Shown: positions 922 to 22,152 of the stretch, piece after piece
Numbering within the stretch: position 1 is the stretch's first letter
Layout: the number at the start of each line of letters is the position of its first letter
NCBI RefSeq assembly: GCF_003324165.1
Contig: NW_025407907.1
Location: forward strand, 1 to 22,152
Source: Naegleria lovaniensis
Lineage: Eukaryota > Heterolobosea > Eutetramitea > Acrasida > Naegleriidae
Length of the DNA: 22,152 bases
Reading direction: 5' to 3'
The notes under the pieces: generated by a model
What the model saw: only the letters and a program-made list of their open reading frames with translations
Database searches by the model: none
Told to the model about the DNA's origin: nothing
Position numbers and translations under genes: made by a program

Positions 922-959
922 CATGATTGTTGCGGACAAAATACAATAGGAATCTTCAT

Positions 960-974
960 CTGGCGTTCCCAACT
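960..974 (+). repeat. Left terminal inverted repeat
   Basis: CTGGCGTTCCCAACT, exactly complementary to 4829-4843. It is GC-richer than its surroundings. I saw no other copy in the window. Confidence 0.75.
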
Positions 975-1101
975 CCCAGAAATAGTGTTACAATAGCATT
1001 TGGAAAGCACTTTATTTTTTAGAATCCTAACCATTTTAAAAAAGGTCGAGCAGGCTGTCGAAGTTTTGTTCTGGTGTTTGCTGGAGGTTTTTTCAATAAA
1101 A

Positions 1102-4100
1102 ATGTTAAAACATGAACGAAACGCCTTTGTCGGTCTGTTGAGACCGGAATATCATGTTGCCATCAAAACAATGCTATTCGCAGTCCATCAATATATTAAT
1201 GTCGAACATTTAATAGAAGATATTATTGATCAATGTGGATTTCATCGCAAGGATTTTAATACCATCCATCGCCATCTCGAACTATATTTCTCATACCTCA
1301 TCACACACAACAAACGAGTCCCATTTGTTCTATACTGTTGCAAATTCCAGGTTGACAATTCAACAAAGATTGCACAATATGTTACTGATTGCATTGACCC
1401 GGACGAGGATAGTGCTATCTATAACATTTACTCTGACCCAAAATTTCAAAATCAAAGACAAAATCAAGAGTTAACATCAGAATGGATCAACAAACTACAT
1501 TTTCAAGGCTATTTGAAATTGAAAGAGTGTCATGACGAGCTGATGCGAATTCGTCAAAAACGTAAACACTCCAAAACAAGTACAGCTTGCGAAGACCCAC
1601 CTCAAACCTCAACAACGTCACAACGTTATTCTAGTTCAACCATCATGAAATTACTCGAACCAGAAAAAAATGTCGGCGTTATTGAATTACATAAAATCCT
1701 GGATCATGGTTTTGCTGAAGACTACATCACGTTGTCATATTCAACAAAAGAACAAACAGCACCGTATTACATGCTGCAACAACTAATTAACAACAAATTT
1801 ATTCCAACACACTCATCAATTGTAAATACCAAGTCCGACACCATCTCTCATAATTTTGTAGACCATGCTGATTTTAAATCACAAAATAACGATGATGATA
1901 GTTATTATTCGGAATGTGATATATTTGATGAGGATATTCAAGAATTGAAAAAATTGTTTTTTCAGGTGTTAGGTAGTCGCAAATTAGTACCTCGAACTTT
2001 CTTTTTCACATATCTTCGTGATGCTTTTTCACAATTAATTTGCAAAGACAGTAGAGGCCATAGATGGAGCCCATCTGTTCTTTGTTTTGCTCAAGATTTA
2101 TTGGTTATCATGGGATACAATGCGTATGAAGCATTGGCGAGAGGGTTGAAACGAGGACAAGAATTTGAACCCTCTTCTGAAAGATGTAACTTAGTCCTAC
2201 CTTGTTCATCCACACTCGACCATCATTTTCACACCGCATCATATGGAGAAGGGAATACTAAACTAGACAAAGATGACTTTGATAAGCTAGTAGAAAAAAT
2301 GAAGGTTATTGAAAATCAAAATTTTGGTCTTGTTCAAATTGATGCAGTAGATGTAACACCGCATTTAGGAATCAATACCAAGCTTGGGCTTGTATACGGT
2401 GCCAATGAAGGTCCATTGAAGATTAGTGATTGTACTGCACTAGCTCAGAGTCCGAATTTTCCACCCAAGGGTTTTTTAGCTGAAAAAATTGTTCAAACTT
2501 TATATTGCAGTATTAACGGTGAAGTTCGAATTCCTGGAAACTTCAAAGTATGCACTACTGAAACTGAACAAACCATTAGAGACACGATTTCTGAATTTCG
2601 TGACACATATACTCGAAACATCGTCTGTACTGTGTCAGATGCAGGGTCTGCTAATTACAAATATTTCACATCGAGCCCAAATGAACTACATCATTTTTGC
2701 TACAGTCACCATTGCAAAAACATGAGGAATGCAATTAATGGGAGACCAAAATTATATCCGGTTGCCACTAAAGTAGGTGCTCCAAACCTTCAAATTGCAC
2801 GCCATTCCTCTGCTTGTATTTCTTCCAACGACAACGGAAACGGTTGCCATTTGATGAAAATTGTTATTCAAAGAACACAAGCGACCAACATACCACTTTC
2901 CTTCATAGTGAATGACAAAGACACAATTTCATTTGAATGGAAAGAAAAAGAACCACGGAATTTTAACTCTGGAGGCATTTCTTTCTATCATAGCAGCAAT
3001 GACAACGAATTAAGTGTTACGTTGTTGAGTGAAACCCTTCATACTAACATTGGTAAAGTGTGTGTGGCAAATTTTAGCAATCAAGACATAGCTGTCACCA
3101 AAATTTCTTGTTCTATTTTACAACGATTTGAATTGAACACACTCGATGAAATATATAGACAACAACCTTTAGAGTGGTGTAAAATAGTTAAACGGAGCTC
3201 GTTTATCAAATATGATGATCAATCTGAGGATGTATTACGTGATGTATGCAATTTACAGTTACTTGAAAAATTACGATTATTGAACGAGAGAACCAACTAT
3301 CGATATTTAGGATTCTATAAGTACTTAAAAGCGATACATGATTTATTTCATGTTTACGATGACAAAAATCATGATGGAACATCTTCACACAATTTGCACG
3401 AAGTGTTGCAAGTTCTTAAGGAAAATTTGGACTATTTGAATGAGTGGGATACCGTTTTCCAAGACGTCATTATTTCCAATAAGAATAATAATTTTACATT
3501 ATCCGGAACCCTCACAAAAAACATCATTATCCATAACATCAAAACAATTCAGAAATTGATCAGAATTATTCCACAAGATGCAGTTTTTGATTTGTCTTTA
3601 TTGGGAACACGTTCTCTTGAAGGATTTTTCGGAGAGTCACGTGATTATTCAAAAAGAACCACAGTATTGGACTATCATAGAAGTTACTCAAACATGAAAA
3701 TCAAATTAGTGAAAAAAGAATGTGTATATCTTTCATACAATAACGATAGAAAGAGGAAATATTGTGATGCCCCTAGTCAAATTAACCAACAAATTTTGAT
3801 GAGAATGACTGAAAAACAATTTGTTGACTTTAATAATGAAAGAAAGCAAGCTAGAGAAAGCGTGACATCCATTTCTTATAGTTTTACAGATCAAGATTTA
3901 ATTTGTGCGAAAGACTTACAATTGCGATGTTTACAACATCGTGTCAACTCCATCCGTCAATCATACCATCAGTCAAGACATGACTATAGGGCCGGATTTG
4001 CCACCGATTTCATGGAGACAAGCATTTCCAATTACTACAACATTTCACTTCCTGTTTTCCATATTGAAACAAGTGAAGTTTTGCCAAACTTAACAGAACG

Positions 4101-4542
4101 ACTTACATTAACCGACGACATCAGTTTTACCATTATTCAAACACACGACTCATTAATTCATGCTCAAAATCATATTGCGGCATTTTTGCTTAAAAAGCCC
4201 GTAGAATTTGAAATTAAGACTAATCATATTTCTTTGAGCAATGCAACCGTAGAGGTTCGCAATTTCAATGAGAACAATGAAAATGCATCTCGACATTCTG
4301 AACCAATTAACTCATTTAAAATATTTGTGGCACCAAATCAGACGGATCCATTCAAATTTAAATTAATTGGACAATTTTCATCAACAACCAGCACCAAGCT
4401 TTATCAAAAACAAATTGCTGTGATTGTTGGAAATTATCAGTTGTTGTCACCTCCTTTTTACGTATTTGCAAAGAAAACAAAAAACCTCGTTTCGTATTCC
4501 CAGCTGAGCCAGGTGGTGGCTTCGTCTCAAGACATGCAATAA
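1102..4542 (+). CDS. P-element/THAP9-like DDE transposase
   Basis: Predicted transposase of 1,146 residues in one uninterrupted exon. The frame is open back to about 1000, but the first ATG is at 1102. Landmarks of the P-element family appear in order. A pre-catalytic block at about residues 325-376 has Trp-Ser, Phe-Ala, Tyr-Glu-Ala and ends in LPCSSTL. The first acid is probably Asp414 (IDAVDVTPH). The second is Asp513 (VSDAGSANYKYF), followed by the His-Lys-Arg-Asn motif HHCKNMRNAI. The third is Glu840 (SLEGFFGESR). The 327-residue gap before the last acid fits the large insertion typical of P transposases. No N-terminal THAP zinc finger is visible, so how it recognises DNA is unclear. A beta-rich C-terminal region (about 970-1130) has no counterpart I know. 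The frame has no stop or frameshift, so it may be recently active or domesticated. AATAAA overlaps the stop. Confidence 0.75.
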   Translation: MLKHERNAFVGLLRPEYHVAIKTMLFAVHQYINVEHLIEDIIDQCGFHRKDFNTIHRHLELYFSYLITHNKRVPFVLYCCKFQVDNSTKIAQYVTDCIDPDEDSAIYNIYSDPKFQNQRQNQELTSEWINKLHFQGYLKLKECHDELMRIRQKRKHSKTSTACEDPPQTSTTSQRYSSSTIMKLLEPEKNVGVIELHKILDHGFAEDYITLSYSTKEQTAPYYMLQQLINNKFIPTHSSIVNTKSDTISHNFVDHADFKSQNNDDDSYYSECDIFDEDIQELKKLFFQVLGSRKLVPRTFFFTYLRDAFSQLICKDSRGHRWSPSVLCFAQDLLVIMGYNAYEALARGLKRGQEFEPSSERCNLVLPCSSTLDHHFHTASYGEGNTKLDKDDFDKLVEKMKVIENQNFGLVQIDAVDVTPHLGINTKLGLVYGANEGPLKISDCTALAQSPNFPPKGFLAEKIVQTLYCSINGEVRIPGNFKVCTTETEQTIRDTISEFRDTYTRNIVCTVSDAGSANYKYFTSSPNELHHFCYSHHCKNMRNAINGRPKLYPVATKVGAPNLQIARHSSACISSNDNGNGCHLMKIVIQRTQATNIPLSFIVNDKDTISFEWKEKEPRNFNSGGISFYHSSNDNELSVTLLSETLHTNIGKVCVANFSNQDIAVTKISCSILQRFELNTLDEIYRQQPLEWCKIVKRSSFIKYDDQSEDVLRDVCNLQLLEKLRLLNERTNYRYLGFYKYLKAIHDLFHVYDDKNHDGTSSHNLHEVLQVLKENLDYLNEWDTVFQDVIISNKNNNFTLSGTLTKNIIIHNIKTIQKLIRIIPQDAVFDLSLLGTRSLEGFFGESRDYSKRTTVLDYHRSYSNMKIKLVKKECVYLSYNNDRKRKYCDAPSQINQQILMRMTEKQFVDFNNERKQARESVTSISYSFTDQDLICAKDLQLRCLQHRVNSIRQSYHQSRHDYRAGFATDFMETSISNYYNISLPVFHIETSEVLPNLTERLTLTDDISFTIIQTHDSLIHAQNHIAAFLLKKPVEFEIKTNHISLSNATVEVRNFNENNENASRHSEPINSFKIFVAPNQTDPFKFKLIGQFSSTTSTKLYQKQIAVIVGNYQLLSPPFYVFAKKTKNLVSYSQLSQVVASSQDMQ

Positions 4543-4543
4543 A
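4538..4543 (+). terminator. Polyadenylation signal AATAAA overlapping the transposase stop
   Basis: AATAAA at 4538-4543 contains the stop codon TAA (4540-4542), the same arrangement as in the gene ending at 920. Confidence 0.4.
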
Positions 4544-4694
4544 ATGTCAAGCATTTTTCATCACAAAAAAAGTTCGTCCAAAAATTGGAACACGTTTAAA
4601 ATTGTTCACCTATTTATTTCTTCCGACCACAATTACACCGTATTTTTCTAATCACAACAACATACCTCAAGTCGTTTTATTATTCATTATAGCT

Positions 4695-4742
4695 CCAGCA
4701 GAAGCCTTTGTCCTTCAACAAAGACAAAGCAGCTTTTGCTGG
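4695..4742. repeat. Imperfect hairpin inside the right end of the transposon
   Basis: Arms 4695-4712 and 4723-4742 pair almost completely (CCAGCA-AAGC-CTTTGTC against its complement) with one mismatch, a 2-nt bulge and a 10-nt loop. It lies downstream of the transposase gene and about 90 bp inside the right inverted repeat. It could be a subterminal transposase-binding site or a 3'-end structure in the transcript. Confidence 0.55.
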
Positions 4743-4828
4743 GCGAACAACAAAAAGCTAATGTAACAAAAACACTGAGACGTAGCCCGAATGAACCAAA
4801 TAAAGGAATGTTACACCAGCGAAGTGGT

Positions 4829-4843
4829 AGTTGGGAACGCCAG
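4829..4843 (-). repeat. Right terminal inverted repeat
   Basis: AGTTGGGAACGCCAG, the exact reverse complement of 960-974. The flank outside it (CGTGAGGG) does not match the left flank. Confidence 0.75.
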
Positions 4844-5119
4844 CGTGAGGGACCTTTTTCAATTTTTTGAATTTTACAAGTTCATCCAAGAGTTTACAAA
4901 ACATAGGTGGTACGGCTGAGTAATGAAAGGGATACGGTGCAGTTTGTTGCCCCATCATTTTGTGGTTTTCAGTGCAGGAATGACAATTGAGCTGAAATAC
5001 GTCAAAGACAATGCCATGGTTTTACACTGGTTGTTTCATTCCACAAGAGATATCATGACTTTCCCATTCTCATTCGAGAGATTCATCTTGTCTATTTTGC
5101 ACGAAATGACATCTTGAGA
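4844..5119. other. Spacer between transposon and membrane-protein gene
   Basis: No gene is seen here. A 64-codon frame (4923-5117) ends just before the start of the next gene, is in another frame and resembles nothing known. The spacer presumably holds the promoter and 5' UTR of the gene starting at 5120. Confidence 0.4.
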
Positions 5120-6814
5120 ATGGACACATTCACCAAAACCTGGAGATGTTTTACAGATCTAGTCTTCACTCGCATTGTGTCATTGACAAATTTGTTCCTG
5201 TCAGAGTTCATTCTTGCTCTCCTTCGCCTAACCATTGTGACATTAATTTTCAACAAAAACAATCATCCGACTCTCCCTGCTGGTTCAATATCTCTTCATC
5301 GGTTACCAATGCCGTTCAAGACTGACGGGTTGCTCTTTGAATCTTTCCTTACAACCACCATGTATCACATGTTGCAACAGAGCAACAACAACAACTCTTC
5401 ATCATCTGCGAATACCAGCTCACAACAACCTCCTCCCATCACACTAGGACAATTAGACAAGCTATCTTTCTCCATTCCCGACCTTATATTAGCTTCCCTG
5501 CTTGCATGTACTCTCCTACTAGTGACCATCTTTATCATCCTCTTCAACACGTGTTGGCAAAAGAAAGCTTTACGATCATCCAAAGGACACCATCACTCCG
5601 AGAATGCCATGAAACGAAATCAACGAATCATGATTGGTCTGATCCTTCTCCTCGTTCTCGTTCAAGCACTCGGAATGACTTGTCGATGTATTTACACTTC
5701 CATCAACATGTCCATTGTTTCTCTTGCACGACAATTTGTTTCCACTCATTACCCTACCAACAGTACACTCTATATGGAAACCTTTCTCTATGAGAATAGC
5801 TCTCTCATCATTACGGATGCCAATATTCCATACTCTCATCTCGTGGGAATGAATGTGGCCAATACTCTCGAGTTGTTGTTTACCTTATCGAATTTGAGTG
5901 TTCTCATGTCCATCATGTGCTTTATTGGTAATGTGTTCATTCGGACCGTGAAATTAGCCAATGCTCAAGAATCATTCCTAGGTGCTGGCTACAAGACTGC
6001 AACATTCATCTTTAATGTTTCAACAGTTATATTTTCCTTAACAGTGTTGGCAGTGGTATGGACAGTTGCCATCATGTCCTCCTTCATCCGATTGAAATTA
6101 GTTCAGGATATTCAAATTTACTTGTACGTCATTGGATTTCTGATCTTTCTCTTCCAAATATTACTCCAATTAGCTGCAACCATTGTAAGTATTCTTACAT
6201 GTATTTTTTTGTAAAGTACTTACCTTCATGAACACGACAAGGCCATTTCCTTCAAAGTTTTACAAGTTATCAACTCGAATCGTTCCAAACACATCAAAAA
6301 CAACTCTCAAATGAAACGTGCCTTCATTAAGGTCGTGATTTTACAAGTGACTCTCACGCTGAGTGCCTTGCTTCAAATTATTGCTGTGGCTTTTGGTGCT
6401 GTCATTTCCGAATGGAAATATTTTAGTTTGTTTTATTTGGTATTGAATAATTTGGGAATTTTAATATTTGCAGTGGTGGCATTGGCCTTGTATCATCCCA
6501 TCTTTCATTTTGGAAATACCAAAGAGCAACCAATTCCCACCTCGGACTATCCGTATCATGAAAGTATTTATAGTACGAGAAAACGAAATTCAAGTGCATT
6601 GCCGAATTCGACTGTTTCTTCGACAACGAGTACAAATGCTGCAACCGTGAATTCTCCATGTTTGAATGGAGCAATGGAAACAACAGACTCCAACTCGCAT
6701 AGTTTGAATGCTCCTTCTTCAACTTTACAAGAGCAACAACAATTTGAAACACCTCCTTTCGAAAATGGGACGCCATGCCGTCCTGTCATCAAAAGTGAAG
6801 ACGCTCATGTATGA
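5120..6814 (+). CDS. Polytopic membrane protein with GPCR-like topology (2 exons)
   Basis: Exon 1 is 5120-6184 and exon 2 is 6242-6814, joined in phase 0 over a 57-bp intron (GTAAGT...ACAAG), giving 545 residues. Without splicing the frame ends at 6214 and the last membrane helices are lost. Hydrophobic segments lie at about residues 25-44 (signal anchor or signal peptide), 122-145, 170-192, 247-275, 296-319, 331-355, 384-407 and 414-440. Taking the last seven as the bundle, the loops between helices 1-2, 3-4 and 5-6 are basic, and the long loop between helices 2-3 holds several N-glycosylation sequons. This is the positive-inside pattern of a 7TM receptor with an outside N terminus. A 105-residue Ser/Thr/Asn-rich tail follows. 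I see no family signature, so a GPCR, a TOM1-like protein or an unrelated transporter remain possible. The first ATG of the frame is at 5120. Confidence 0.72.
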
Positions 6815-7015
6815 AATTTGTTACAGCAACAAGTGGATTTTAATACTAATTTTTATCGAAACATAATCAATATGTTTTGAATGAATTGAGGAAATGACAG
6901 GAGTAGGAAGTTGAACTGTTGCAAGTTCCCTCACTGAGCTTTCTCGGATTTGTTCAAAACCTTAATATTCGAATGGAACCATTCTCGATCCAACGAACAA
7001 TCTTGTCACAGACTG

Positions 7016-7021
7016 AATAAA
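7016..7021 (+). terminator. Possible polyadenylation signal for the membrane-protein gene
   Basis: AATAAA at 7016-7021 is the first such hexamer after the stop at 6814, about 200 bp downstream and just before the SAM gene at 7050. It would leave almost no intergenic space, so it may be chance. Confidence 0.25.
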
Positions 7022-7049
7022 TGATGGCTTCCTTTTTTAGAAATTTGAT

Positions 7050-8270
7050 ATGGAACAAGACCTTTTGTTCTTTAAAGGACACAGGAAAAACCAACAGAAA
7101 AAAATGAATCTATTCAAATTAAAGAGTACAACATCCACGCATGAATTTGTGCCAGATGTCACACACATCGCTATCAAAAACTGGACCAGCGAGAATTTCA
7201 AACATTGGCTGATGAGTGAAAAATATGACCAAAAAACTGTCATTGATGGTATGTTTTCCACGCAATCTTGTATTCAATCATTCAATACTCTACGTTTTAC
7301 GTGGAAATAATTGAAATAATATTCATTCCGACATCATTTGATGATTATTTTTCATTTGAATCTATCTCATTGAATCAATTTCAAATTTTATATTAAATAT
7401 TTAAAACATGTCCAAATGCATGGACATTCGACACTCATGGCTCAACATACAGTCCTCATGAAACAACAACTCACTGGAAATGCCATTCTCTGTTTAACCA
7501 AAGATTTAACTGAATTCAAAGTTCCAACAGGAGCTGCCATTTCCATTATTGCCAAATTGGACAAACTCAGACAAGAACAAGAAGAATGGATGCAACAACC
7601 TCAAACCAAACAACTCTTTTCCTTGTCCTATCCGTCTGCAACAACCACAACAGAACCATTTTCAAATTCGGAAAATCATGAATCTATTTCTGTTGTGGAT
7701 TCTAATGAGAATGTTGATTCACAAACTTCTCCGAGAGCAATTCCAAAACAACCTCAAACTCCAACTGTTCAGCCCATCATTCATCATGCTGAACAAGATC
7801 ATCCTGGGTCGAGCATGCACTCACTGAGCGGTCATTCCTCAACAATTCAACAAATTTCTCCCCGTAATCATCATTGTGCTCAGGAAGAACAACTACACTC
7901 GACAGACAAAGTAAGTCCGAGAAGGGATCATCATCCTAAACCTTTGCCAACACTTCCTCATTCAGCATCATCTTCAACAAAACCAAATACTCCAATTCCT
8001 CCCATGAAGAGATCAAGTTCTGTTCAAGCGAATGGGACCAATCCAAACAACAACAGGCTGAATTCTTTCAGCACTACAACGACGACCACTACGACTCAGC
8101 AACAACAACCCATACTTCAACAGACTCAACAACAATCTCCTCGACAGACCCCTCCTCAATATCAACCACCTCCACAACAATCAAGTCCAACGAATGTGCA
8201 ACAAGACCACAAGAATACGAGATCAAAGAAATTTGTAGATGCTGGCTTCTTCCCTGAGGATGAATTGTAG
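7050..8270 (+). CDS. SAM-domain protein with disordered Gln/Pro/Ser-rich tail (2 exons)
   Basis: Exon 1 is 7050-7248 and exon 2 is 7453-8270. The 204-bp intron (GTATGT...ACATACAG) splits the SAM domain after the first base of a codon, and splicing restores a continuous domain of 338 residues in total. The SAM signature is at about residues 44-105: an NWTSENFKHWL start, a leucine-rich middle (QQLTGNAILCLTKDL) and the final FKVPTGAAISII helix. SAM domains mediate protein-protein and sometimes RNA or lipid binding, often as scaffolds in kinase or Rho signalling. The remaining 230 residues are low complexity, with Gln, Pro, Thr and His runs and several Ser-Pro-Arg sites open to phosphorylation. 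The intron is much longer than most others here. A possible splice acceptor (TTTTTTAG, ending at 7040) just before the ATG means a 5' non-coding exon could exist. It is convergent with the large minus-strand gene; 91 bp separate the two stops. Confidence 0.8.
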
Positions 8271-8299
8271 CAGTCGCAGAACTTGTTGTTAGTTGAGGT

Positions 8300-8305
8300 T
8301 TTATT
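8300..8305 (-). terminator. Polyadenylation signal of the large receptor gene
   Basis: AATAAA on the minus strand, 56 bp after the receptor stop (8362-8364) and only 30 bp from the stop of the convergent SAM gene. Confidence 0.5.
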
Positions 8306-8361
8306 TGAGGAGATCTTTGAGGAACGATTATGTAACACAACGTTACAGACTTCATCTCCTC

Positions 8362-11300
8362 TTACATTGAAAAGACATCCATTTGAATCAAATCAATTTG
8401 ACTTTGCTCCACGGTATAAATAGATGGTTTTTTCTTGTTTTCTCTCTTTTTCTTGTACTTCTTCCTCAAAATGAATAGGACACACATGCAACACATGATG
8501 ACGAGACACATTAGCAGCAGACCAACAGGTAAAAGGAACCACAAAAACGTGGTGCCAACGGTAGACGAAGAATTTTGTGGCTTTGGATGAGAAGATTTTT
8601 CTGCTTCTGGCAGATTATCAATTGAAACCTTGACATTTGTTGTAACTGTGGTGTCTTTGGTAATGGCAAACAAACCAAAATGGAGGCATTGACATGTCAT
8701 CACTTGGTCAGTAATAGGCATCACTAAATTACAAGTTGTGTCAGAAATCCACATTCCCTGTTGGAGATATCTGCAGGAAAAGGTCTCCTCGATTTGTATC
8801 GTCTTGTTGAATAAGGTGCCATTGTTGTTAAATAATGTAGTACTGCTAGAAGCTTTCTTAATTTGGCCTGTAGTGTTTATGTCTATTACAGGAATAGAAA
8901 CACTAATCTTACTATCATTAAGAGAGGGTGAGGCTATTTGTGATGATTCAATGGATACAAATACAAAATATTTGGAAACAAAGTAGGAATAAGTATCAAC
9001 CGTGGTGTTCAAAGAGCCCGCTTGAGAGGAGCGTGGTAATGTGCTATTCCAATTATAAAAATCGTTCATAGTATAAACAACATGCTCGACAGGTGTTTTT
9101 GTTGATTTCTGATTGATCGATTGAATAATATTCTCTGGATATAAAACAGTTCGTTCCTTGTTAGAAGAATCCATGAAATATGGTACAACAAGGCTTGGGA
9201 AGTCTTTTCTCCACAATTTGTTAGTGGTTAGCGTGGAAAATTTTGCTTTCAAATGTACATTCTTCTCACCCACTTGCTGACCTCTCAGCAATAACTTTCC
9301 GACACACTGAATGATATTCAATAACTTCTCTTGAATATAAATGTAGGGACCATTATTTTTGTAGAGGATGTAATTGTAGATTGAGTTCATTGCCTCAATG
9401 ATCAATTGGTCCACTCCATATGGTAATACTAGATTGGTAGTATTTAACGCAAGCTGAACAATATCTTCAGTAACTTCGACAACACTTGTTATGGATGAGT
9501 CATTAAATTCATCATAATTGAAAGTAAGAGATTGTAGACCATATGCTTGCAATGTCAAATACACGTCACTTAATTTCTCCAAACGATTTCTATTGGTATA
9601 GCTTGAAATAAATGTTTGTGTCTCATTGAACTTTAAGTCAATCAAGTATTGATAGGTACTTTTAGATACGCTACAATCACGTTTGAAGTAGCCTGTATTG
9701 CAATCACACATTTCTTTTTCTTCGTTGTAACTGCCTTGTCCATTACACTTGTCACTTGTGGTCATTCTTCTCCGTTGTACATTTTCATTCAGTTGCTTTA
9801 AAACTCCAATAGTTGTTCTTGAAATGGTTCCTGCATTGTAAATACTCTTGCCAGAATCTCCATCTCTTAAATTATTTTCAATCGTTTTCCATTGCATGGT
9901 CTTGGCCCGAAGTTCAGCCATGGAGATCACTTGTGGATTATAAATTTTAACATTGATATTTTTAGTGTTTCTACTCATGGTTTGAGGGTCAAAAACATCT
10001 AAAAATACCTTCATTGTATTTCCTTGGAAAGGCAATGGGAGTTTTGTGGAGTATCTTTCTCCTGCATGATAGAGTGGTACATTAGCCCCAGATCTATCGT
10101 CTACAAAGCCGAACGAGTATTCTACCAGTTTTGTTGGATTGTTACAATTAATACATTTGAATAAAAAATCGGTTTCTAAGGCCACTCCTTCTGTAGGGGT
10201 TAATGAACATATGCAAGAATTGGGACTTCGAGCTATTTGGAAGCGATGTGTTCGAGTTGCTGACAATGTTGTACGTAAATCAAGGGCAGTAAGAGAAACT
10301 GAATGATTAGAACCCTCTTCCAGCTTGGAAGAATCAATGAGTATGTAATCTGAATGATTGAGGCTCTTATCAGGCATTCTATTGATAAGTATTTCATCAA
10401 TGTATTTTCCATTAAGAGCCCACTGTGTTAAAACATCATTTGCACTTGCAATGGAATATTGAATACTCAATATTGTGCCTTGAGTAATCGAGGGCTTGGA
10501 AGGTTTGATTTCAATAATGTTAATGATTGGAGAATTATCAAATGCAATCATAACACTGGATTGTGCGCTTCGTGTTCCTTTAGTTACTTTCAGAGAAATC
10601 TCAAGTTGCTCCGCATATTCGTTTGTTATTTGAATGGAGTTATTTTGGAAAACAGAAGCATCTGATAGTAATTGTTGAATGCTGTCCGAGCATAATCCAT
10701 TGTAAACTACATCTCTGCACGTCCATTGATAAAATAAGGTGTCCGTAGTTTCATCCGGATCATTCATTTCAGCAATAATATTAATGGTAGATGATGTCAA
10801 TTTTTCTGAAGAAATATCCAATATGAGGTCTTGTGGTACTGTATAAATGGTAACTAATTGCTCTGAGAGAAGAGAATTGTCGGTTACTCTTAAAAGTTGA
10901 AGAGCATATTGGTATGAACGTTCTCCAGAAAAGTAAAATTTGGAAATTAACAAATTATTGAAAGAGTCTGATTGGTAGTCGGTTTTTGGTCCACTCAGTT
11001 GTTTCCAAACCAATTTTACAGATGTGGCAAGGTCTCCATTATCGCATACAGGTAATTTCAGAGACTTCTTGATCAATAACGGAAGATCATTAGAGGTAAT
11101 GTTAGCAATAACGTTCTTGCCAACAATTTCAATGGATGGAATGGGTGTTGGCTCTCTTTCAAATGTCACAGTTTTTGCAATACTCAAACTACCAGAGAAT
11201 GTGCTTCGAACTTGCAATGAAATGGTATGAATACCGCTTTGCAATTGAGCGGAAGAGAGTTTGATTGTTGCGTTACCATTAATCTGGTTCAACATTTGTT

Positions 11301-14300
11301 GTAGTATAGATTGTGATGGTGATGACATTGCAGTCCAATTAAACCGTAATTCTCTTCCATCTCCAGAAAATGAAGCACTTCCATCCAATTCAATATCGTT
11401 ACACAATCCAACACGTGTTGAAGAAATATCAACGAATGCCATCGGTTGTATGGGAGTTGTGGCTCCAATGACTTGTACGGATACATAATCAGACACGTTT
11501 ACGCGAATGTTGAAAACATTTCTATTCAATCTAATGAACTGGTTGGGTAAAATCGAAGGATTTTCACCAAATCGAATCATGAATAGCCCGCTATCCTTGT
11601 GTGTCCATCCACAAATAGGGGATGTACCAAATTCATTAGATGTTAATTCTAACAACTTAGAACACTCAATATTGACACTACTGAAAGATGCTGGAGCGAA
11701 CACATGGAATATTAATGCACTACCCAAGTCGTTGAATTGTGGTTGACCAACAAACTTGGTTGCACATTCCTCTCCATAATAACCGTTTAAGCACATGTCG
11801 CACCTATTGCCAGCCCAATAACCTTGTGATGACGATTGATAACATGAACATTGTCCATTCGCAATACAGGCTCCATGTCCAGAGCAGTTAGTTTCTTTGG
11901 AACAATAAATATCACATGACTGTCCAAAATAATTCTCTCTACATTCATCACAAAATCTTCCGTTCCAGTTGTCCCTGCATGCGCATTGTAAATTTTCACA
12001 TTCTCCATGGTTATTGCATGTGGATGTAGAATTACATGTTGGAATATTACATTTTGGTCCAGTATGAGTTGGAAGACAACTCTCACAATTATAACCATAC
12101 CAGAAGCCATCTTGTTCATTGCTCGAGCAGTTACAATAATTATAAGCAATGCATTGGCCATGTCCACCACAAACACTCGAATTTTGAGCGTCAATTCCAA
12201 AGCAACTTGTTAATTGGCAATATTCTCCAGAATATCCGTCGTTACATTTGCATCCTCCTTCACGAGTTGTGGAATTTAAAACGCAGTCTCCATTTCCGTT
12301 AGAACATACTCTTTGATCAGTTGAAGCAAAGTAACGGTTATTAGAACCTTTACATGACAAGTTTTCACATTCAAATCCATCGACTTTTAAAGAATATCCA
12401 GTGGATGTGACACAAGTACAGTGATTCGGAGTCATGCAAAATCCCTTTCCGCTGCAAACGCTTGCATTGTCTGACCCTAATTTGCCAAAACAAATTGGTG
12501 TATCACAAAATTGCCCACCATAATTATTTCCAGAGCATGTGCATGTATCAGGAGAGACACATTCACCATTTCCATTACAAACACGAGTGGAATCATTCGA
12601 CAGGATGGAATTACAAGTAGCAAATTGGCACTGATCACCACTGTATCCGTTCATACATTTACATTTGTTGTGAGCAATGCATTGCCCATGTGAAGAGCAG
12701 GCTGAGCTTACGGTTGTAGAATTGATGCCAAAACATGTTGTCAGTTCACAATTAGTACCTTCATAAAACTCGTTACAGTCACAAGAGTTGAAATCAATAC
12801 ATTGACCAGAACCTGAGCAAACTGCACTTTCATTGCTTGAAATTCCGAAACAACTTGTGAGAGAACAATTTGTTCCAAAATAATTGTGGTCACAAGTACA
12901 ATTATTGAAGCTGGTACATTGTCCATGTGAGTTGCAAGCATTAGAATCATTATTCCAACTATTGAAGCAAGAAGTAATGTTGCAGCTATCTCCAAAATAA
13001 TTCTCATAACAAGTGCAATTGTTAGTACTGGAACAAAATCCATGACCACTACACACATTCCCATCTGTTGAGTTGATTCCAAAGCATTGAACATCAGCTA
13101 CATAGTTGCTGTTATTAGCTGTAGAACCAGTCTCTACTCTAATAGAGCAATTGTTTCCTGTGTAATTTGTGTAGCAAGAGCAGTGATCAAACCTAGAACA
13201 GTTTCCATGGCCGTTGCAAACAAAAGGATCTGAACTATTGATACCAAAACAAGTTGTGGTTTCGCATTCTTGCCCAAAATAATTGAGAGAACAATTACAT
13301 ATATTTGGAGCTGTGCAGTTGCCATTACCATTGCATGTTGTCGTTTCATTCATTCTCACATAAAAGCAGTCATATGTGTTACAACTCTGACCATAGTATC
13401 CATTATTACACGCACAATAGTTTGGCAAGATGCATTCTCCGTTTCCAGAGCACGTGTTAGAGCTGTTGCCATACTGACCAAAACAAATTGGTACAGAACA
13501 GTTTGCACCCACCCAATCTGCATCACAATAGCACACATCTTTTGAAATACATTTTCCATGAGAGTTGCATGCAGAACTTCCTGATATGTTAAAACATGTT
13601 GACTCACTACAGTTACTTGCCAGCCATCCCGAAAAACATTCACATACATTGTTTGAGATGCAGTTACCGTTTCCTGAGCATGTATTAGCAGTGTCGTTGC
13701 CAATAATTCCAAAGCAATAGGGTATCGAACAATTTACACCTGCCCAACCATTATGACAATTGCAAACTCCATCATCTTGACATGTTCCATGTCCTCCACA
13801 AACATTTGAATTGTTTCTCGACAATCCATTGCAATATCTCAATGAACAGTTCATACCTTCATAAAATTCGTGACAGTCACACGAGTTGAAATCAATACAT
13901 TGCCCAGAACCTGAGCAAACTGCACTTTCATTGCTTGAAATTCCGAAACAACTTGTGAGAGAACAATTTGTTCCAAAATAATTGTGGTCACAAGTACAAT
14001 TATTGAAGCTGGTACATTGTCCATGTGAGTTGCAAGCATTAGAATCATTATTCCAACTATTGAAGCAAGAAGTAATGTTGCAGCTATCTCCAAAATAATT
14101 CTCATAACAAGTGCAATTGTTAGTACTGGAACAAAATCCATGACCACTACACACATTCCCATCTGTTGAGTTGATTCCAAAGCATTGAACATCAGCTACA
14201 TAGTTGCTGTTATTAGCTGTAGAACCAGTCTCTACTCTAATAGAGCAATTGTTTCCTGTGTAATTTGTGTAGCAAGAGCAGTGATCAAACCTAGAACAGT

Positions 14301-17300
14301 TTCCATGGCCGTTGCAAACAAAAGGATCTGAACTATTGATACCAAAACAAGTTGTGGTTTCGCATTCTTGCCCAAAATAATTGAGAGAACAATTACATAT
14401 ATTTGGAGCTGTGCAGTTGCCATTACCATTGCATGTTGTCGTTTCATTCATTCTCACATAAAAGCAGTCATATGTGTTACAACTCTGACCATAGTATCCA
14501 TTATTACACGCACAATAGTTTGGCAAGATGCATTCTCCGTTTCCAGAGCACGTGTTAGAGCTGTTGCCATACTGACCAAAACAAATTGGTACAGAACAGT
14601 TTGCACCCACCCAATCTGCATCACAATAGCACACATCTTTTGAAATACATTTTCCATGAGAGTTGCATGCAGAACTTCCTGATATGTTAAAACATGTTGA
14701 CTCACTACAGTTACTTGCCAGCCATCCCGAAAAACATTCACATACATTGTTTGAGATGCAGTTACCGTTTCCTGAGCATGTATTAGCAGTGTCGTTGCCA
14801 ATAATTCCAAAGCAATAGGGTATCGAACAATTTACACCTGCCCAACCATTATGACAATTGCAAACTCCATCATCTTGACATGTTCCATGTCCTCCACAAA
14901 CATTTGAATTGTTTCTCGACAATCCATTGCAATATCTCAATGAACAGTTCATACCTTCATAAAATTCGTGACAGTCACACGAGTTGAAATCAATACATTG
15001 CCCAGAACCTGAGCAAACTGCACTTTCATTGCTTGAAATTCCGAAACAACTTGTGAGAGAACAATTTGTTCCAAAATAATTGTGGTCACAAGTACAATTA
15101 TTGAAGCTGGTACATTGTCCATGTGAATTACACGCAGATGAGTCATTACCAATAATTCCAAAGCAATAGGGTATCGAGCAATTTACACCTGCCCAAACAT
15201 TTTGACAATTGCAAACTCCATCATCTTGACATGTTCCATGTCCTCCACAAATATTTGAATTGTTTCTCGATAATCCATTGCAATATCTCAATGAACAGTT
15301 CATACCTTCATAAAATTCGTGACAGTCACACGAGTTGAAATCAATACATTGTCCAGAACCTGAACAAACTGAACTTTCATTGCTTGAAATTCCGAAACAA
15401 CTTGTGAGAGAACAATTCAATCCAAAGTAATTCAAATCACATGTACAATTATCGAAGCTGGTACATTGTCCATGTGAGTTGCAAACTGATGTGTTATCAG
15501 ATCTAACTCCAAAGCAAGTGGTGAGAGAGCAATTTGTTCCAAAGTAATTCAAATCACAGCTGCAATTATTGAAGCTGGTACATTGTCCGTGAGAATTGCA
15601 GGCAGATGAGTCATTGCCAATAATTCCAAAACAATACGGTATCGAGCAGTTTGAACCAACCCAACCATTATAACAATTGCAAATTCCATCGTCTTGACAT
15701 GTTCCATGTCCTCCACAAACATTTGAATTGTTTCTAGACATCCCATTGCAATATTTAAACGAGCAGTTGTAGCCTTCAAACAATTCTTTACAATTGCAGG
15801 TATTAAAGTCAATACAGACACCATTACCTGAGCAACCATCGCTGTCGTTGCTGGCGTGCCCAAAACAAGTGGTGAGAGAACAATTTGTTCCAAAATAATT
15901 GTGGTCACAAGTACAATTATTGAAGCTGGTACATTGTCCATGTGAATTGCACGCAGATGAGTCATTACCAATAATTCCAAAGCAATAGGGTATCGAGCAA
16001 TTTACACCTGCCCAACCATTTTGACAATTGCAAACTCCATCATCTTGACATGTTCCATGTCCTCCACAAATATTTGAATTGTTTCTCGATAATCCATTGC
16101 AATATCTCAATGAACAGTTCATACCTTCATAAAATTCGTGACAGTCACACGAGTTGAAATCAATACATTGCCCAGAACCTGAACAAACTGAACTTTCATT
16201 GCTTGAAATTCCGAAACAACTTGTGAGAGAACAATTCAATCCAAAGTAATTCAAATCACATGTACAATTATCGAAGCTGGTACATTGTCCATGTGAGTTG
16301 CAAACTGATGTGTTATCAGATCTAACTCCAAAGCAAGTGGTGAGAGAGCAATTCGATCCAAAATAATTCAAATCACAGCTGCAATTATTGACGCTGGTAC
16401 ATTTTCCAAGTGAGTTGCAAACGGAATTATTGTCAGATCTAATTCCAAAACAGGTTGTGATAGAGCAATTCGATCCAAAATAATTCTCATAGCAAGTGCA
16501 ATTATCAAACCCATCACAAGATCCATGACCGCTGCAAACTAATGAATCATTTGACATCGTTCCAAAACATTTCATCAAATCACACTTGTCGCCATAGAAG
16601 TGAGGGTAGCACGAGCAACGGTCATTCTGCAAGCATTCACCATTGTTACTGCAAACAGAATTGTTATCAGATCTAATTCCGAAACAAGTTGTGAGAGAGC
16701 AATTTGCTCCAAAGTAATTATGGTCACATGTACAATTATTGAAGCTGCTACATTGTCCATGTGAGTTACATGCTAGAGAGGAGTTGGATTGCACGCCGAA
16801 ACACAATGTAAACTCACATACATTTCCAAAATATGTTTCGTTACAAGCACAAGTATCTCGAAGAATACATGATCCATGTCCATTACAAACTTTTGTGTCG
16901 TTTGCCAATGTTCCATTACATATTGGAATTTCACATTGATTACCAATATATCCGTCATAACATGTACATTGATCTTTGGAAATACAATTTCCTTTGGACC
17001 CACATACAGATGATTCATTTGAAAATCTTCCAAAGCATGTAGTGATATTGCAAGAGTTTCCATAATAATCTTGCTCACACACACAACTATGCGGACTTGA
17101 ACAATTTCCATTGCCGTTGCAGGTAGTAGGATCAGTACTTAAAACTCCAAAGCAAGTGGTAACGGAGCAATTAGCTCCAAAATAATTGGGAAAGCATTGA
17201 CAATTGTTGGGAGAGCTACAATTTCCATTTCCTGAACAAACACTGGGATCAGAAGCTAAAATAGATGAGCATACTGGAACATCACAAAAATCACCCTGCC

Positions 17301-20155
17301 ATCCGGTAGAACACACCAAATACATTCTTCTAATTCTATACGCTTCGAAAGTAATATATTCTTTTCTTTGAGATGACCATGCAATGCTGTAAATGTAAGT
17401 CAATGCTGTATTAATTGCATTAGCATTTTCAGCTGTTCAACAAGAAGAATTAAGTGATATTAAGTGTTATTATGATATTGAATTAAGCTCTTAAAATCAT
17501 GCACTTACATGTACCCATTCCATTTCCAGCTACAGAATACAGATTTCCAACACTATCTATTTTCTTCAAGTATTGCTGTCCAGTTCCAAAAAATACTTCA
17601 TTATTGATAGAAAATGCCCAACCCATATCAGCAACGTACTGTTAAAAGTAAGAATTATAGTTTGACATTCTATTACTTACTGACAACGATCTGCCAATAG
17701 TGTTTACAATTCCAGAATTGATATTATAAACTCTAATTTTGCTCAATGAGGTGTCCACGTAGTATAGAAGACCATTCGGTGTGATTTGAAGTGTTGTTCC
17801 TTAATTGTAGAAGATTCATGGTGGTTGAAAAATCGTTGTTGTTGTTTTGAAAAATACTTACCACATGTTACCTATATCATTCTCTATTAAAGTAACAAAT
17901 ATGTAGTAAAATAAACTTACACTTGATGCTGTTCCTAATATGTTATCTGTATTTGAACCTCCTCCTCCTACAACAGTATAAACTTTTCCATCTACTTTTG
18001 AAATTTTTCTTATTTTCTGATAGACAGAGAAATATAATTCTCCATCATAAAAAGCTACAGCACGAGGAAACTGCCCGAGTATGATTGTAACTCTTTTCCA
18101 CATTTTCAAACATTAACTTACATTCAACCCACAAGCAGTTGGAGCAGTGCCATCAGCACAGTCTGTACTACTTCCTGATCCAGCAACCAAAATTATAATA
18201 CCCGTTTGTTTTGAAACTTTTTTAATTGAGTAGGTTCCTTGTTCAGCAATAATCAAGTCTCCACTATCATCTATCGCAAGTCCACTTAGTTGGTTAAATC
18301 TGAAAGAGTATGAGAATTCGTGTTGGAAATTGTTAATATGTTTGAACTTTACCTTGCCATAATGGCTGGACCATTCAAACCAGCAGCAGAAGAAGGTGCT
18401 TGATATGATGAAATGAAACATTGTCCTAAATATTGACAAAAAGAGTCTCGTAAATGTAATTGATGAATAAACTTACCTGCATATGTTTTGATTAACTGGC
18501 TTGTCATGTTGTAAAATTTGATGCAAGCGGAATCTGATTCGCTGTAATAAAAGTTTCCATCACGATCCATCACTTGCGCTCTAAAAGAGCTAATTGGTGA
18601 TTGTTTTGCAGGATTATAGTTTACAAAAATACTAGCAGTATTAATGATCGAGCTTAGAATAGAACCGGTATATTTTCTAAGTCTGGATCCAAAAGCTTCT
18701 GAGAAATAAATAACGCCAGCACTATCGATAGCAATACCACGCACATCCGCAAGCGCAACAGATGTACCAGATGTAATAGAGCCATCAGCTTGTTAATGAT
18801 GAAAATGATGATTCCGTAACTAAATTTAATCTATAACAAACATACCTGTTGAGTAATATTGGCCAGTTCCCAGTACATGTGTAAAAGTACCTCCAGAAGA
18901 ATATTTTGAAATGTAATAGTTTCTATGAGCAACTCAATTCAAGTCGACTTATTTTTGCTCATACTAATACTTACTGTGTAATATATAAATCTCCACTAAT
19001 ACTATCATAAAACATTTTAGAAGGATATGCAAGAGATCCAGTTCCTCCAGTTCCAACAAGTGTGTTCACTGTTGTCAATGTTCCACCATTATTTGTAATT
19101 TTTCGTACTCTGAACGTGTCCTTTTTTTCGAAGTATATTAGTAATGTCATAAAAAATTGAATTACTTACTAATACTAAAATGTTTCCTTGGTTGTCCTTA
19201 AATGTTCCTCGTTATCTAAAACAACAATTCAAAGACACTTACAATTTTCAAATCATATATTGAATTAAATAAGGTACTGCTAACAGGACTTCCCTCTACA
19301 ACTGTACCACTACTTGCTCCTCCTGCTACAGTTGTTACTGCCAATGTTGAACCATCTACTTTTCTGATCCTAGAACCATCACATACATAAATGTCATCAT
19401 TTGAATGAACAAATAGGCAAGATATTGAAGAAAATTTTGCAGACAATGGGTTAGTGTGGTCTATTGTTCCAGAAGAAGTACCTCCTATTGGAAGAAATAT
19501 ATGCACAACAATATTCGTTTGATGATGATTGCTATTATTCAACAACAACCTGACTTACCTGCCAATAAGCTAACATATCCAGTAGTCATATCAATTTGTC
19601 TAATGGCAGTATTTTCTCCTACAAGGAGCTTGGAATTCGATCTCCACCATGCAAGTCCATTTGGAGAATATAATGCTTGTGCATTTGCTGCTAGCCCCGT
19701 TGAAGTGCTACATAGAAGTAATGATGTGAGTCTGTATACATGAAACGCAATAACATACCTATAACCTCTAACCCCTGTACCAAGTACCGTAGTCACCATG
19801 TTGGTATTCAAATCAACCCTTCTTAGTCTATAATAGTCTGAATAGTAAATGAAGGATTGAGTGGGATCTAGCAACAAAGATAAGCCTCCGGACATGCCAG
19901 ACTGAGATGAAGTCAAATTTTCTCCAGCAAAGCCATTCCCTCCCTATATCATATCGAATCCGTGTGATGATGAAAAAATTATTCTCATGTTCGCATGATG
20001 AATTGTTACAGGTAACCTACCGTGCCGGCAAGAGTTTCCATATAGTATTCGAAATTAGCACACTGTACCACCTTAGTATTGTGTAGTAGTAAGCAAAAAA
20101 GTAACGAGATTCCAACAAACAACGCTGGAAAAAATATGAGTCCCTTATTTTCCAT
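8362..20155 (-). CDS. Giant NHL-EGF-REJ-GPS single-pass receptor (15 exons)
   Basis: Exons on the minus strand in transcript order: 20155-20021, 19943-19759, 19707-19559, 19484-19243, 19196-19170, 19120-18975, 18922-18846, 18788-18477, 18425-18353, 18299-18122, 18070-17921, 17871-17862 (10 nt), 17799-17681, 17638-17509, 17432-8362. They total 11,004 nt in consistent phase, 3,667 residues. Order: hydrophobic signal peptide (about 5-26); about 12 NHL-like units (about 40-680; cores such as IYVCDGSRIRKVD), enough for two six-bladed propellers; about 45 six-cysteine EGF-like modules (about 684-2535); a REJ region (about 2640-3145, with GRELRFNW and a CxCxLTP...DFLFKC segment); one isolated EGF (about 3206); a GAIN-like region with a GPS motif (about 3526-3568); one transmembrane helix (about 3603-3630); a Lys/Arg-rich tail ending MDVFSM. 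Likely a heavily N-glycosylated plasma-membrane adhesion or recognition receptor; the ligand is unknown. Intron boundaries are predictions; the 10-nt exon is the least certain. Confidence 0.85.
12806..15126 (-). repeat. Tandem duplication with 1,098-bp period (nine EGF modules)
   Basis: Every base from 12806 to about 14028 appears to recur 1,098 bp later, up to 15126. First differences are at 12805/13903 (A/C) on one side and 14029/15127 (G/A) on the other. The period is 366 codons, exactly nine EGF modules, so the frame is preserved. Identity was judged by eye and by identical translated segments in several frames. Confidence 0.85.
15053..16353 (-). repeat. Older block duplication with 819-bp offset (seven EGF modules)
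   Basis: 15053-15534 matches 15872-16353 with only about three differences, among them a Val/Gly change in the NC-Q-N-x-W-A-G stretch. The 819-bp offset is 273 codons, seven modules; about four modules are near-identical. Confidence 0.8.
17862..17871 (-). other. Predicted 10-nt microexon of the receptor gene
   Basis: Between acceptor ...GATATAG and donor GTAAGT lie ten bases (GTAACATGTG). Including them keeps the frame open and reads Val-Thr-Cys-Gly. The Cys-Gly matches the Thr-Ala-Cys-Gly at the same place in the preceding propeller unit. A longer 22-nt exon using the upstream AG would hit a stop. The rival model is a weaker donor (GTGTAAGT) at 17922 spliced straight to 17799, which also keeps frame. 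Confidence 0.5.
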
Positions 20156-20319
20156 TTTGAGGATTTTTTTTGTGTACAACAACACAGGTTGGCTTGCCAC
20201 CAAACGAGTTTTCGAAATTTGAATATTCCTTTTTCGCTCTGCTCCTTGATAAGGCAAACCAGCGTAAATAGAGGCCTAAAAACAACCCACGAAGTGAGCT
20301 CTATACCGTGCTCATTGTG

Positions 20320-20333
20320 AATCGACGTCGATT
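20320..20333. promoter_or_regulatory. Perfect 14-bp palindrome with GACGTC core
   Basis: AATCGACGTCGATT reads the same on both strands and lies 165 bp upstream of the receptor start codon. It could bind a dimeric (for example bZIP-like) regulator. Part of it, GTGAATCGAC, is repeated directly at 20616-20625. Confidence 0.3.
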
Positions 20334-20344
20334 ATGTACACATT

Positions 20345-20392
20345 TGCCGTTCCGTACTTTCTCTACCAATAATTGGAACATTCTTGCAGTGG
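20345..20392 (-). pseudogene. Rac gene fragment, minus-strand arm
   Basis: Twenty-one of 22 bases at its right end match the rac coding region around Lys-Asn-Val-Pro-Ile-Ile. Internal deletions remove the following codons, so it cannot code for a GTPase. It pairs with the plus-strand fragment at 20418-20470. Confidence 0.65.
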
Positions 20393-20417
20393 AGATGATC
20401 ACGCTTTTAATTTTTCA

Positions 20418-20470
20418 CAAGAATGTTCCAATCATTCTCGTTGGTACACGAGAGAAAGTACGGAATGGCA
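20418..20470 (+). pseudogene. Rac gene fragment, plus-strand arm
   Basis: The first 32 bases (20418-20449) are identical to the rac coding strand (complement of 20981-21012) and read [11 protein letters not shown] deletion follows. The tail (GAGAAAGTACGGAA) is shared with the opposite arm but not with the intact gene, so both arms come from one decayed copy. Confidence 0.7.
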
Positions 20471-20544
20471 AAGTAAATCTGCCACCATCTCAAAACTTTC
20501 CGGTGTTCCTATTGATTGGTGTGATTACAACATACGTTATCATT

Positions 20545-20576
20545 CTGCAGTGGTCAAAATCTGCAGTGGTCAAAAT
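20545..20576. repeat. 16-bp unit repeated twice in tandem
   Basis: CTGCAGTGGTCAAAAT occurs at 20545-20560 and 20561-20576 with no spacer. GCAGTGGT also occurs in rac at the end of its conserved segment. Confidence 0.7.
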
Positions 20577-20691
20577 CGATAATCACGATAGAAATGATGG
20601 GAAAAATTTAAAAGCGTGAATCGACCCATTTTTTGACGTGTGTGAGAAGGAAACAACATTGATCTCTTCTCAACAATTACAAAGTTGAGGT

Positions 20692-20697
20692 TTTATT
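20692..20697 (-). terminator. Polyadenylation signal of the rac gene
   Basis: AATAAA on the minus strand, 45 bp after the rac stop codon (20742-20744). Confidence 0.5.
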
Positions 20698-20741
20698 CAA
20701 GATGAAAACATTGTACAATTTTTCATGAACATTTAAATCAT

Positions 20742-21410
20742 TTACAACAAATCACACTTGCCAGCAGGTTTCTTCTCTGGTTCAGTTTGTTTAAACAAGA
20801 ATGCTCGAATGGCCTCATCAAACACTCCCTTCACTCCTTGTTGTGTCTTGGCGGAACACTCGACATATTTCAAAGCTTTGATTTCTTGCTTCAACTTTTC
20901 TCCTTGATCAGCAGTGAGTGGTTGTTTACCCTTCTCACGCAATTTCTGTACGGTACTTTCATTCTCTCTCAAGTCAACTTGTGTACCAACGAGAATGATT
21001 GGAACATTCTTGCAGTGGTGAGAGACTTCTGGATGCCACTTCAAACGAACGTTATCGTAGCTGGATGGATTCACGACAGAGAAGCAAATGAGGAAGACGG
21101 AGGTTCCTGGGTAGGAGAGTGGACGCAAACGATCATATCTGATGACATTGTGTGTGTCGATGAGTGGTGTGTGTCATTGGTTAACGGTTGTCAATGAGAT
21201 TTTGGTTTCAAAAGAAGTGTTGATCCAAAACAGAATAAGAGTACAAAAGCCGTTATCATCATCATCATCATTGGTTACTCATCACGTAAAGAACAACAAG
21301 ATGTTAATACTTACTCTTCTTGACCAGCAGTATCCCACAATCCCAAGTTGATGGTCTTTCCATCAACCATAACGTTTGCAGAGTAGTTATCAAACACCGT
21401 TGGTACATAT
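20742..21410 (-). CDS. Rac/Cdc42-like small GTPase, 5' part missing
   Basis: Two exons are visible, 21410-21315 and 21138-20742, joined over a 176-bp intron (GTAAGT...CATCAG), encoding about 164 C-terminal residues. Rho-family landmarks: end of switch I ([11 protein letters not shown]), switch II ([18 protein letters not shown]), the base-recognition motif VGTQVDLRE (Gln as in Cdc42), the Rho insert region, ECSAKT, and a C-terminal CaaX box (CDLL) expected to be geranylgeranylated for membrane attachment. Rac-type GTPases control actin, phagocytosis and motility. The first exon, with the P-loop GDGAVGKT and about 30-35 residues, is not present on the minus strand up to 22152. The acceptor before 21410 (CCGAATAG) is good and in the right phase, so either a long first intron leads outside the window or the gene is 5'-truncated. 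Confidence 0.85.
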
Positions 21411-22152
21411 CTATTCGGGTCGTCATAACAACATATGGTCATTGTTATTGATGGTTGCGGTATGTGATCATGTGTATGATGATGGGGTGATGATTGAACA
21501 ATGTGTGGAGAGTTCAGCGATGACGATGGTTGGAGAAACGAATCGTTTGTTGTTGTTGTTATTGTTGTAAAGAATCATGAAATTGTTGTTGTAAAAAACC
21601 AAAAGATGATTCGCAACATGACAATTTTGAAAAGTTATGGCCATGTGAGAATTCATATTGAGTTTGCGCACCCTAGGAGCAGAGAATCGCGTCTGTATTT
21701 TACATAGTTATCGTCGGTAGTAAATGAAGCTTATTGAATGCATATTGTGCATAAGTAGTGTCTCCTTATTGCGGTCTGTTATTTCGAAGGTGATTCAAGC
21801 TTGTTTCCGCAGGTACAGCCGACGGTAAAACTCGAGATAAAAAATACTGTCGGGAGTTACTGATGAAAAGAATCCACCAAGACACAAAATACAGCCGGAA
21901 GAAGCATCATGTTAAATATTCTAATAATGGAGGTTTAATGAACGAAATAACGACGGAAATACTGTTGAAATAACCTACCACAACACCTGTGGCTGTTACT
22001 ATCGATGATAATGATGGAAATCTTCTTATTTTATTTTAATTCAATTTGAAATTTTTTTGGTTCAATATTTGATTTAAAATTGTTATTGCAAATGCATTTT
22101 AAATTTTATTGGCATCATAATTTACAACTCAACAACGTTGGCAGGGTTGACA
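21411..22152. other. Non-coding stretch upstream of the visible rac exons
   Basis: No gene is recognised. It contains TTG-rich simple sequence (about 21545-21595), several related CGG-containing motifs (21712-21964) and AT-rich DNA to the end. It is either a long first intron of rac or intergenic DNA. Confidence 0.4.

Follow-up and report, generated by a model that had tools for sequence, protein, structure and literature searches.

What kind of protein does a gene encode when REJ and GPS-like sequences are followed by one membrane helix and then a stop? GPS and REJ have been studied mainly on proteins with many helices. The window, which is the entire 22152-base contig (C85) of Naegleria lovaniensis, carries such a gene. 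Its predicted product runs from a hydrophobic N-terminus through 12 NHL-like blades, 45 EGF modules, a REJ domain and a GPS-like motif to one helix and a basic tail.

Gene model and domain order

The whole gene is predicted on the minus strand at 20155-8362. It has 15 exons and a single open frame encoding 3667 aa, and its introns are 42-77 bp long and all GT..AG. The splice model is an automatic model corrected by hand in the introns of the last frame and in the region near exon 2. Two introns proposed automatically inside the last exon were dropped, since the last frame is open throughout. Two very short exons of 10 nt and 27 nt are present in the corrected model and were retained because both restore the frame and the blade pattern. 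The predicted protein contains 120 N-glycosylation sequons.

Exon 15 begins within the last propeller blade and continues through the EGF array, REJ, the GPS-like segment, the helix and the stop. Because the last blade and the EGF array share this exon, and because one frame of 2280 aa in the paralog L027 spans NHL, EGF, REJ and a C-terminal helix, the propeller and the EGF-REJ part are assigned to one gene, as the preliminary description had assumed. Two separate genes are rejected on these grounds.

Propeller and EGF array

All features of the protein are encoded on the minus strand. The N-terminus is signal-peptide-like over residues 3-30 (20066..20149; hydropathy 2.76). The propeller region covers residues about 35-690 (17296..20053, with introns between the exons) and contains 12 NHL-like blade motifs spaced about 54 aa apart. 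In Pfam, residues 1-697 matched TEN_NHL (4.8e-14) and NHL (5.3e-7), both above their cut-offs, and also SGL. The NHL-like propeller described earlier is confirmed at this level, and a propeller fold is predicted from it.

The EGF array occupies residues about 686-2535 (11761..17310). EGF_2 was found in 40 stretches of the long exon with an E-value of 9.5e-113, above its cut-off; EGF_Teneurin was found in 38 stretches, and EGF_TEN also matched. A count of 45 CxC-type modules agrees with the figure of about 45 given before, but the number is uncertain, as the copy of the gene on contig C17 has 36 modules. The C17 copy has one unit fewer of a perfect tandem 1098-bp unit that lies within the array at 12806..15126, where positions 12806-14028 are identical to 13904-15126.

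REJ region and the GPS-like segment

Residues about 2536-2868 (10762..11760), which separate the EGF array from the best REJ stretch, gave a K319L-like_PKD match of 20 bits, under the cut-off of 27. The best stretch of the REJ domain (PF02010) lies at 9919..10761. With a Pfam cut-off of 25 bits, REJ scored 102.2 bits (E 3.3e-29) on a 767-aa piece, 96.6 bits (1.7e-27) on the 3024-aa frame and 86.3 bits in the genome scan. These scores establish the REJ region that had been proposed by eye. A PDB sequence search with this region returned three weak matches, with no REJ among them. The REJ domain is followed by a single EGF-like module at residues about 3206-3231 (9673..9750), recognized by eye from its Cys pattern; EGF_Teneurin gave it 13.8 bits, below the cut-off of 24.3.

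A GPS-like segment is located at residues 3531-3568 (8662..8775). The stalk reads C, RYLQQGMW, C and then C-Q-C-L-H-F-G-LFAI, so that four Cys, the Trp and CxCxH are present. In excerpts of two papers, the canonical GPS cleavage motif is given as H-X-S/T (PMC13062082) and the GPS motif as CxCxHL|T (PMC13197933). The window protein has H-F-G at the cleavage position (8674..8682), and the S/T required for autoproteolysis is absent there.

In isolation the GPS-like segment reached 17.8 bits (E 0.005) with Pfam GPS, short of the cut-off of 22.5, and was outscored by Sclerostin at 20.9 bits, likewise under its own cut-off. GPS was among the Pfam matches of neither the 500-aa nor the 3024-aa piece of the protein, and the window gene was not among the places listed by the genome-wide GPS profile scan. 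Whole-frame Pfam scans are a weak test for GPS: they missed L029, L031 and L035, which stood above the cut-off in the genome scan. A profile built from 17 GPS segments of the same genome gave 16.1 bits on a 71-aa segment of the window protein, 13.3 bits on the last 160 ectodomain residues and 10.4 bits on 638 aa, and no match to the full-length protein. When the 160 residues were shuffled, one shuffle in 7000 attained 13.3 bits. The best shuffle score was 14.5 bits in a set of 2000 and 9.7 bits in a set of 5000, of which 4384 gave a score.

Three groups of stalks were compared as profiles with hhalign: the window, L027 and L028 (A1), ten 7TM stalks (A2) and the other single-pass REJ stalks (A3). 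A1 and A2 aligned in the GPS alone, over 38 columns, with E 3.8e-4 and a probability of 36%. A1 and A3 gave no match (E 0.52), and the alignment of A2 with A3 (E 8.3e-4, probability 24%) was not centred on the whole GPS. The stretch from GPS to helix of the window protein also matched an HLT-type single-pass gene on C2 (E 1.1e-6, 29% identity). The GPS motif claimed in the preliminary description is thus retained in its four Cys, W, CxCxH and shuffle-tested profile score, but it is below the Pfam cut-off and lacks the S/T. It is a degenerate relative, with H-F-G where cleavage would fall.

The position where a GAIN domain would be expected, residues about 3233-3530 (8776..9669), is 24-25% identical to the C26 and C59 paralogs. 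Pfam GAIN had no match in the window protein or the genome, and the profile was also silent in every control genome. A PDB sequence search with A1 returned four weak matches, with no GAIN among them, and a single-sequence structure model of residues 3225-3600 had a pLDDT of 32, too low for use. A GAIN fold in the window protein is therefore unproven. The A2 profile of the 7TM stalks matched 20 PDB sequences at E <=1, with a best E of 2.2e-8. Because all 20 are adhesion GPCRs, the 7TM stalks with an HTT motif are real GAIN/GPS relatives.

Single helix and tail

The hydropathy threshold was exceeded only by the hydrophobic N-terminus and by one segment before the tail (maximum 3.09), a transmembrane helix at residues about 3607-3633 (8467..8547). 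The basic tail, predicted to be cytoplasmic, comprises residues 3634-3667 (8365..8466), and Pfam recognised no domain in its 34-37 residues. The earlier reading of one helix and a 37-residue basic tail agrees with this result. Across the helix region, 40% identity to the window protein was seen in L044, an EGF protein on C36; neither REJ nor GPS was found in the portion of L044 read.

REJ and GPS relatives in the same genome

The 30.7 Mb assembly was scanned for both domains. REJ was found at 14 places, or 13 if the window and C17 are taken as one, and the number of independent cases may be lower still given near-identical pairs such as L027/L028. GPS was found above the cut-off at 20 places. 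The cleavage motif was read at 17 of these, with C52, C16 and C35:175203 left out: 12 have HTT (L029, L031, L032, L034-L040, L050, L051), and five have HLT before one helix.

Nine of the HTT places have enough frame for a helix count and show 5-8 hydrophobic segments after the GPS; L029, L050 and L051 are too short, the last two being read over about 140 residues. RGS is above the cut-off in L031, L035, L036 and L038, each with 7-8 hydrophobic segments, and below it in L032 and L034; it was not listed for L029, L037, L039 or L040. REJ is carried by L029, L031 and L032; in L031 and L032 the GPS is followed by seven hydrophobic segments. In L036:132-6125, GPS, a 7TM-like stretch, RGS and GAF (just above its cut-off) were found in one frame, with a cyclase-like end seen by eye.

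Among the HLT places, L041, L047, L048 and L049 have one hydrophobic segment and a short tail at the end (for L043 and L047-L049 the helix was assigned by eye). Upstream of L047, L048 and L049 the same strand carries NHL matches, for L049 in a frame of equal length (643 aa). A near-identical TSFAVID-x-NFKKA is shared by L041, L047, L048 and L049, which have only two of the four cysteines usual in a GPS. At C2:994465 (L043, L045), a canonical HLT GPS precedes one helix, and beyond the helix the same strand carries a kinase domain, which scored 145 bits in the genome scan at C2:993053-993763; a 57-aa kinase-like fragment gave no Pfam family. The GPS-helix part and the kinase are likely one gene, probably for a GPS receptor kinase.

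The closest relatives of the window protein are L027 and L028, which count as about one independent case because they are near-identical. L027 has TEN_NHL, NHL, EGF and REJ above the cut-offs, a C-terminal helix (2.78) and a basic tail; weaker hydrophobic peaks occur in its ectodomain (2.16 at residue 418 and 1.62 at 1302). In the 2158-aa frame fetched for L028, NHL and EGF score and the helix is present. At E 0.01 the hmmscan of this frame gave no REJ match; REJ was found only in the six-frame genome scan (48.1 bits), at the same place as in L027. The window protein, L027 and L028 form an NHL-EGF-REJ single-pass group with a common domain order, a C-terminal helix, a basic tail and a degenerate GPS.

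Other REJ proteins differ at the C-terminus. L026, like L027 and L028, has a C-terminal helix and a basic tail. L022-L024 end in a terminal hydrophobic segment; because no tail follows it, they may be lipid-anchored. L033:1-7230 has EGF, a helix and a kinase-like domain, which may be a pseudokinase because HTAVKLSN and GEFG replace the usual catalytic motifs. Its REJ scored 27.5 bits in the genome scan, above the cut-off, and was not listed at E 0.01 in the whole-frame scan. GPS-like segments are degenerate in L022-L024, L026-L028 and L033; L025 and L030 are partial frames. The coexistence of HLT single-pass proteins, a GPS-helix gene with a kinase domain behind it and REJ/GPS 7TM-like/RGS proteins in this genome indicates that the window receptor is not a single-gene oddity.

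Comparison with known receptor families

The window protein is neither an adhesion GPCR nor polycystin-1. It shares with the polycystin-1 and sea urchin REJ family the order of REJ and then a GPS-like segment beside the membrane, but it has a single helix, its GPS is below the cut-off, and Pfam listed neither PLAT nor PKD_channel for it at E 1. Membership in the polycystin-1 family is rejected on the single helix and the lack of PLAT or channel. The only PKD_channel match in the genome is on C12.

In teneurins, EGF repeats precede the NHL propeller, a YD-repeat shell is present and the N-terminus is on the cytoplasmic side. The best propeller profile of the window protein (TEN_NHL) and two of its EGF profiles (EGF_TEN, EGF_Teneurin) are of teneurin type. 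However, NHL comes before EGF, the predicted membrane orientation is opposite, REJ is present and no YD-type match was listed at E 1. A teneurin is rejected on the reversed domain order.

With adhesion GPCRs the window protein shares a modular adhesive ectodomain and a GPS-like segment. In place of a seven-helix domain it has one helix, a tail and a stop, with no 7tm_2 listed, and in place of H-X-S/T it has H-F-G. One-helix forms are described in two animal cases. Drosophila Cirl exists in a 1TM and a 7TM form, and the two seem to pair, according to an excerpt of PMC13197933; its 1TM form is single-pass like the window protein, whereas in the Naegleria genome a separate gene encodes the single-pass form. 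In a one-helix ADGRE2 construct, GAIN cleavage was seen but not quantified (PMC12488864).

Another comparison lies within the genus. For Naegleria fowleri, Bosch et al. 2022 (PMC9283941) describe 28 putative 7TM-RGS proteins; GPS motifs occur in a number of these and EGF-like repeats in several. What such proteins share with the window protein is EGF repeats together with a GPS segment ahead of the membrane. The window protein differs from them in having one helix, no RGS, a degenerate GPS with HFG instead of HTT, and a propeller. Outside animals, REJ and GPS also occur together in Ectocarpus Esi0130_0068 (PMC4700764), which differs in having 6-7 helices; the term EGF is absent from the main text of that paper. 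In literature searches that mostly did not cover subscription journals, PMC9283941 was the sole publication on GPS motifs in Naegleria among the matches listed, and none of those matches concerned Naegleria REJ, single-pass GPS or GPS-kinase proteins.

A 2025 survey, as excerpted, puts the GAIN-7TM link in stem holozoans (PMC12716839), and the HTT 7TM-RGS stalks merit comparison with this origin. A genome that is distant from animals and places GPS ahead of 7TM-RGS, single-pass and kinase ends would reveal which of these combinations had independent origins. Its single-pass GPS proteins would offer a natural test of GPS function without a 7TM domain in the same chain.

Proposed function and alternative explanations

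The balance of these observations tips toward a type I single-pass, uncleaved adhesion or recognition receptor. In such a receptor at the cell surface, the long EGF rod would hold the NHL propeller, either two six-bladed or one twelve-bladed, far from the cell, where it might bind a ligand. The REJ region and the GPS-like segment would form a membrane-adjacent stalk. With the disulfide cysteines kept and the nucleophile lost, the ectodomain would stay covalently attached and bear load and would not be shed; this is expected because the GPS-like segment is without the S/T nucleophile. Any signal would probably pass through partners, because the tail is without a recognised domain. The best candidates would be the 7TM-RGS receptors with a GPS that this genome encodes; the one-helix cleavage of ADGRE2 and the 1TM/7TM pairing of Cirl in animals make this pairing a fair idea by analogy. 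The lineage-specific recognition or adhesion receptor of the preliminary description is still the best reading: its REJ, propeller, EGF array and single helix are borne out, while the GPS is degenerate and GAIN unproven.

A purely adhesive or feeding surface protein, which sends no signal and whose REJ and GPS remnants are structural filler kept by inheritance, is possible but rather unlikely. The short tail without a recognised domain, the degenerate GPS-like segments throughout the REJ group and the tailless, perhaps lipid-anchored L022-L024 are in line with it. It is opposed by the strongly basic tail of the window protein and by the kinase-like domain of L033, which indicates that some relatives are built for signalling.

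Returning to the receptor reading, a broader version would make GPS/GAIN, in this heterolobosean lineage, a portable stalk module across 7TM-RGS receptors, single-pass receptors and a receptor kinase. The single-pass members, including the uncleavable window protein, would bind 7TM-RGS receptors by GAIN or GPS contacts and control their RGS output in trans. We regard this extension as improbable.

It is very improbable that the gene is partly an assembly artefact, its copy number and EGF number being produced by a chimeric contig. The window is a mosaic. Positions 1-959 match C3; positions 958-4843 are a repeated element whose full-length copies, at about 100%, number 18 with this one; positions 4932-13899 and 14050-21671 match C17; and positions 21672-22152 belong to a dispersed repeat, 481 bases or longer, found in 11 places at 99% or more, this one included. 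Both compared stretches have 0 mismatches to C17, and the two 1098-bp units are identical. Contig C85 is probably chimeric or a second, alternative haplotype. However, the whole gene lies within the C17-matching part, and the same last exon, with 36 EGF modules, is present on C17. This limits the problem to copy numbers: the receptor gene itself is sound, but neither the count of its EGF modules nor the count of gene copies is.

Also very improbable is a two-part receptor, cut at the GPS by a fold that still self-cleaves or by another protease: the four Cys and the His of the motif are kept, and HLT is kept in five single-pass GPS proteins of the genome, but H-F-G is without the S/T of the H-X-S/T motif given in the excerpt of PMC13062082.

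Neighbouring sequences in the window

The element at 958-4843 has matching inverted ends (CTGGCGTTCCCAACT) and a 1181-aa frame, for which no Pfam family was above the cut-off; it looks like a recent DNA transposon. Two plus-strand frames at 4991-6814, one with 6 hydrophobic segments and the other with 2, gave no Pfam family at E 0.1 and may be one multi-helix gene divided by an intron. A Rac/Cdc42-like GTPase exon lies on the minus strand at 20745-21173, just upstream of the receptor gene.
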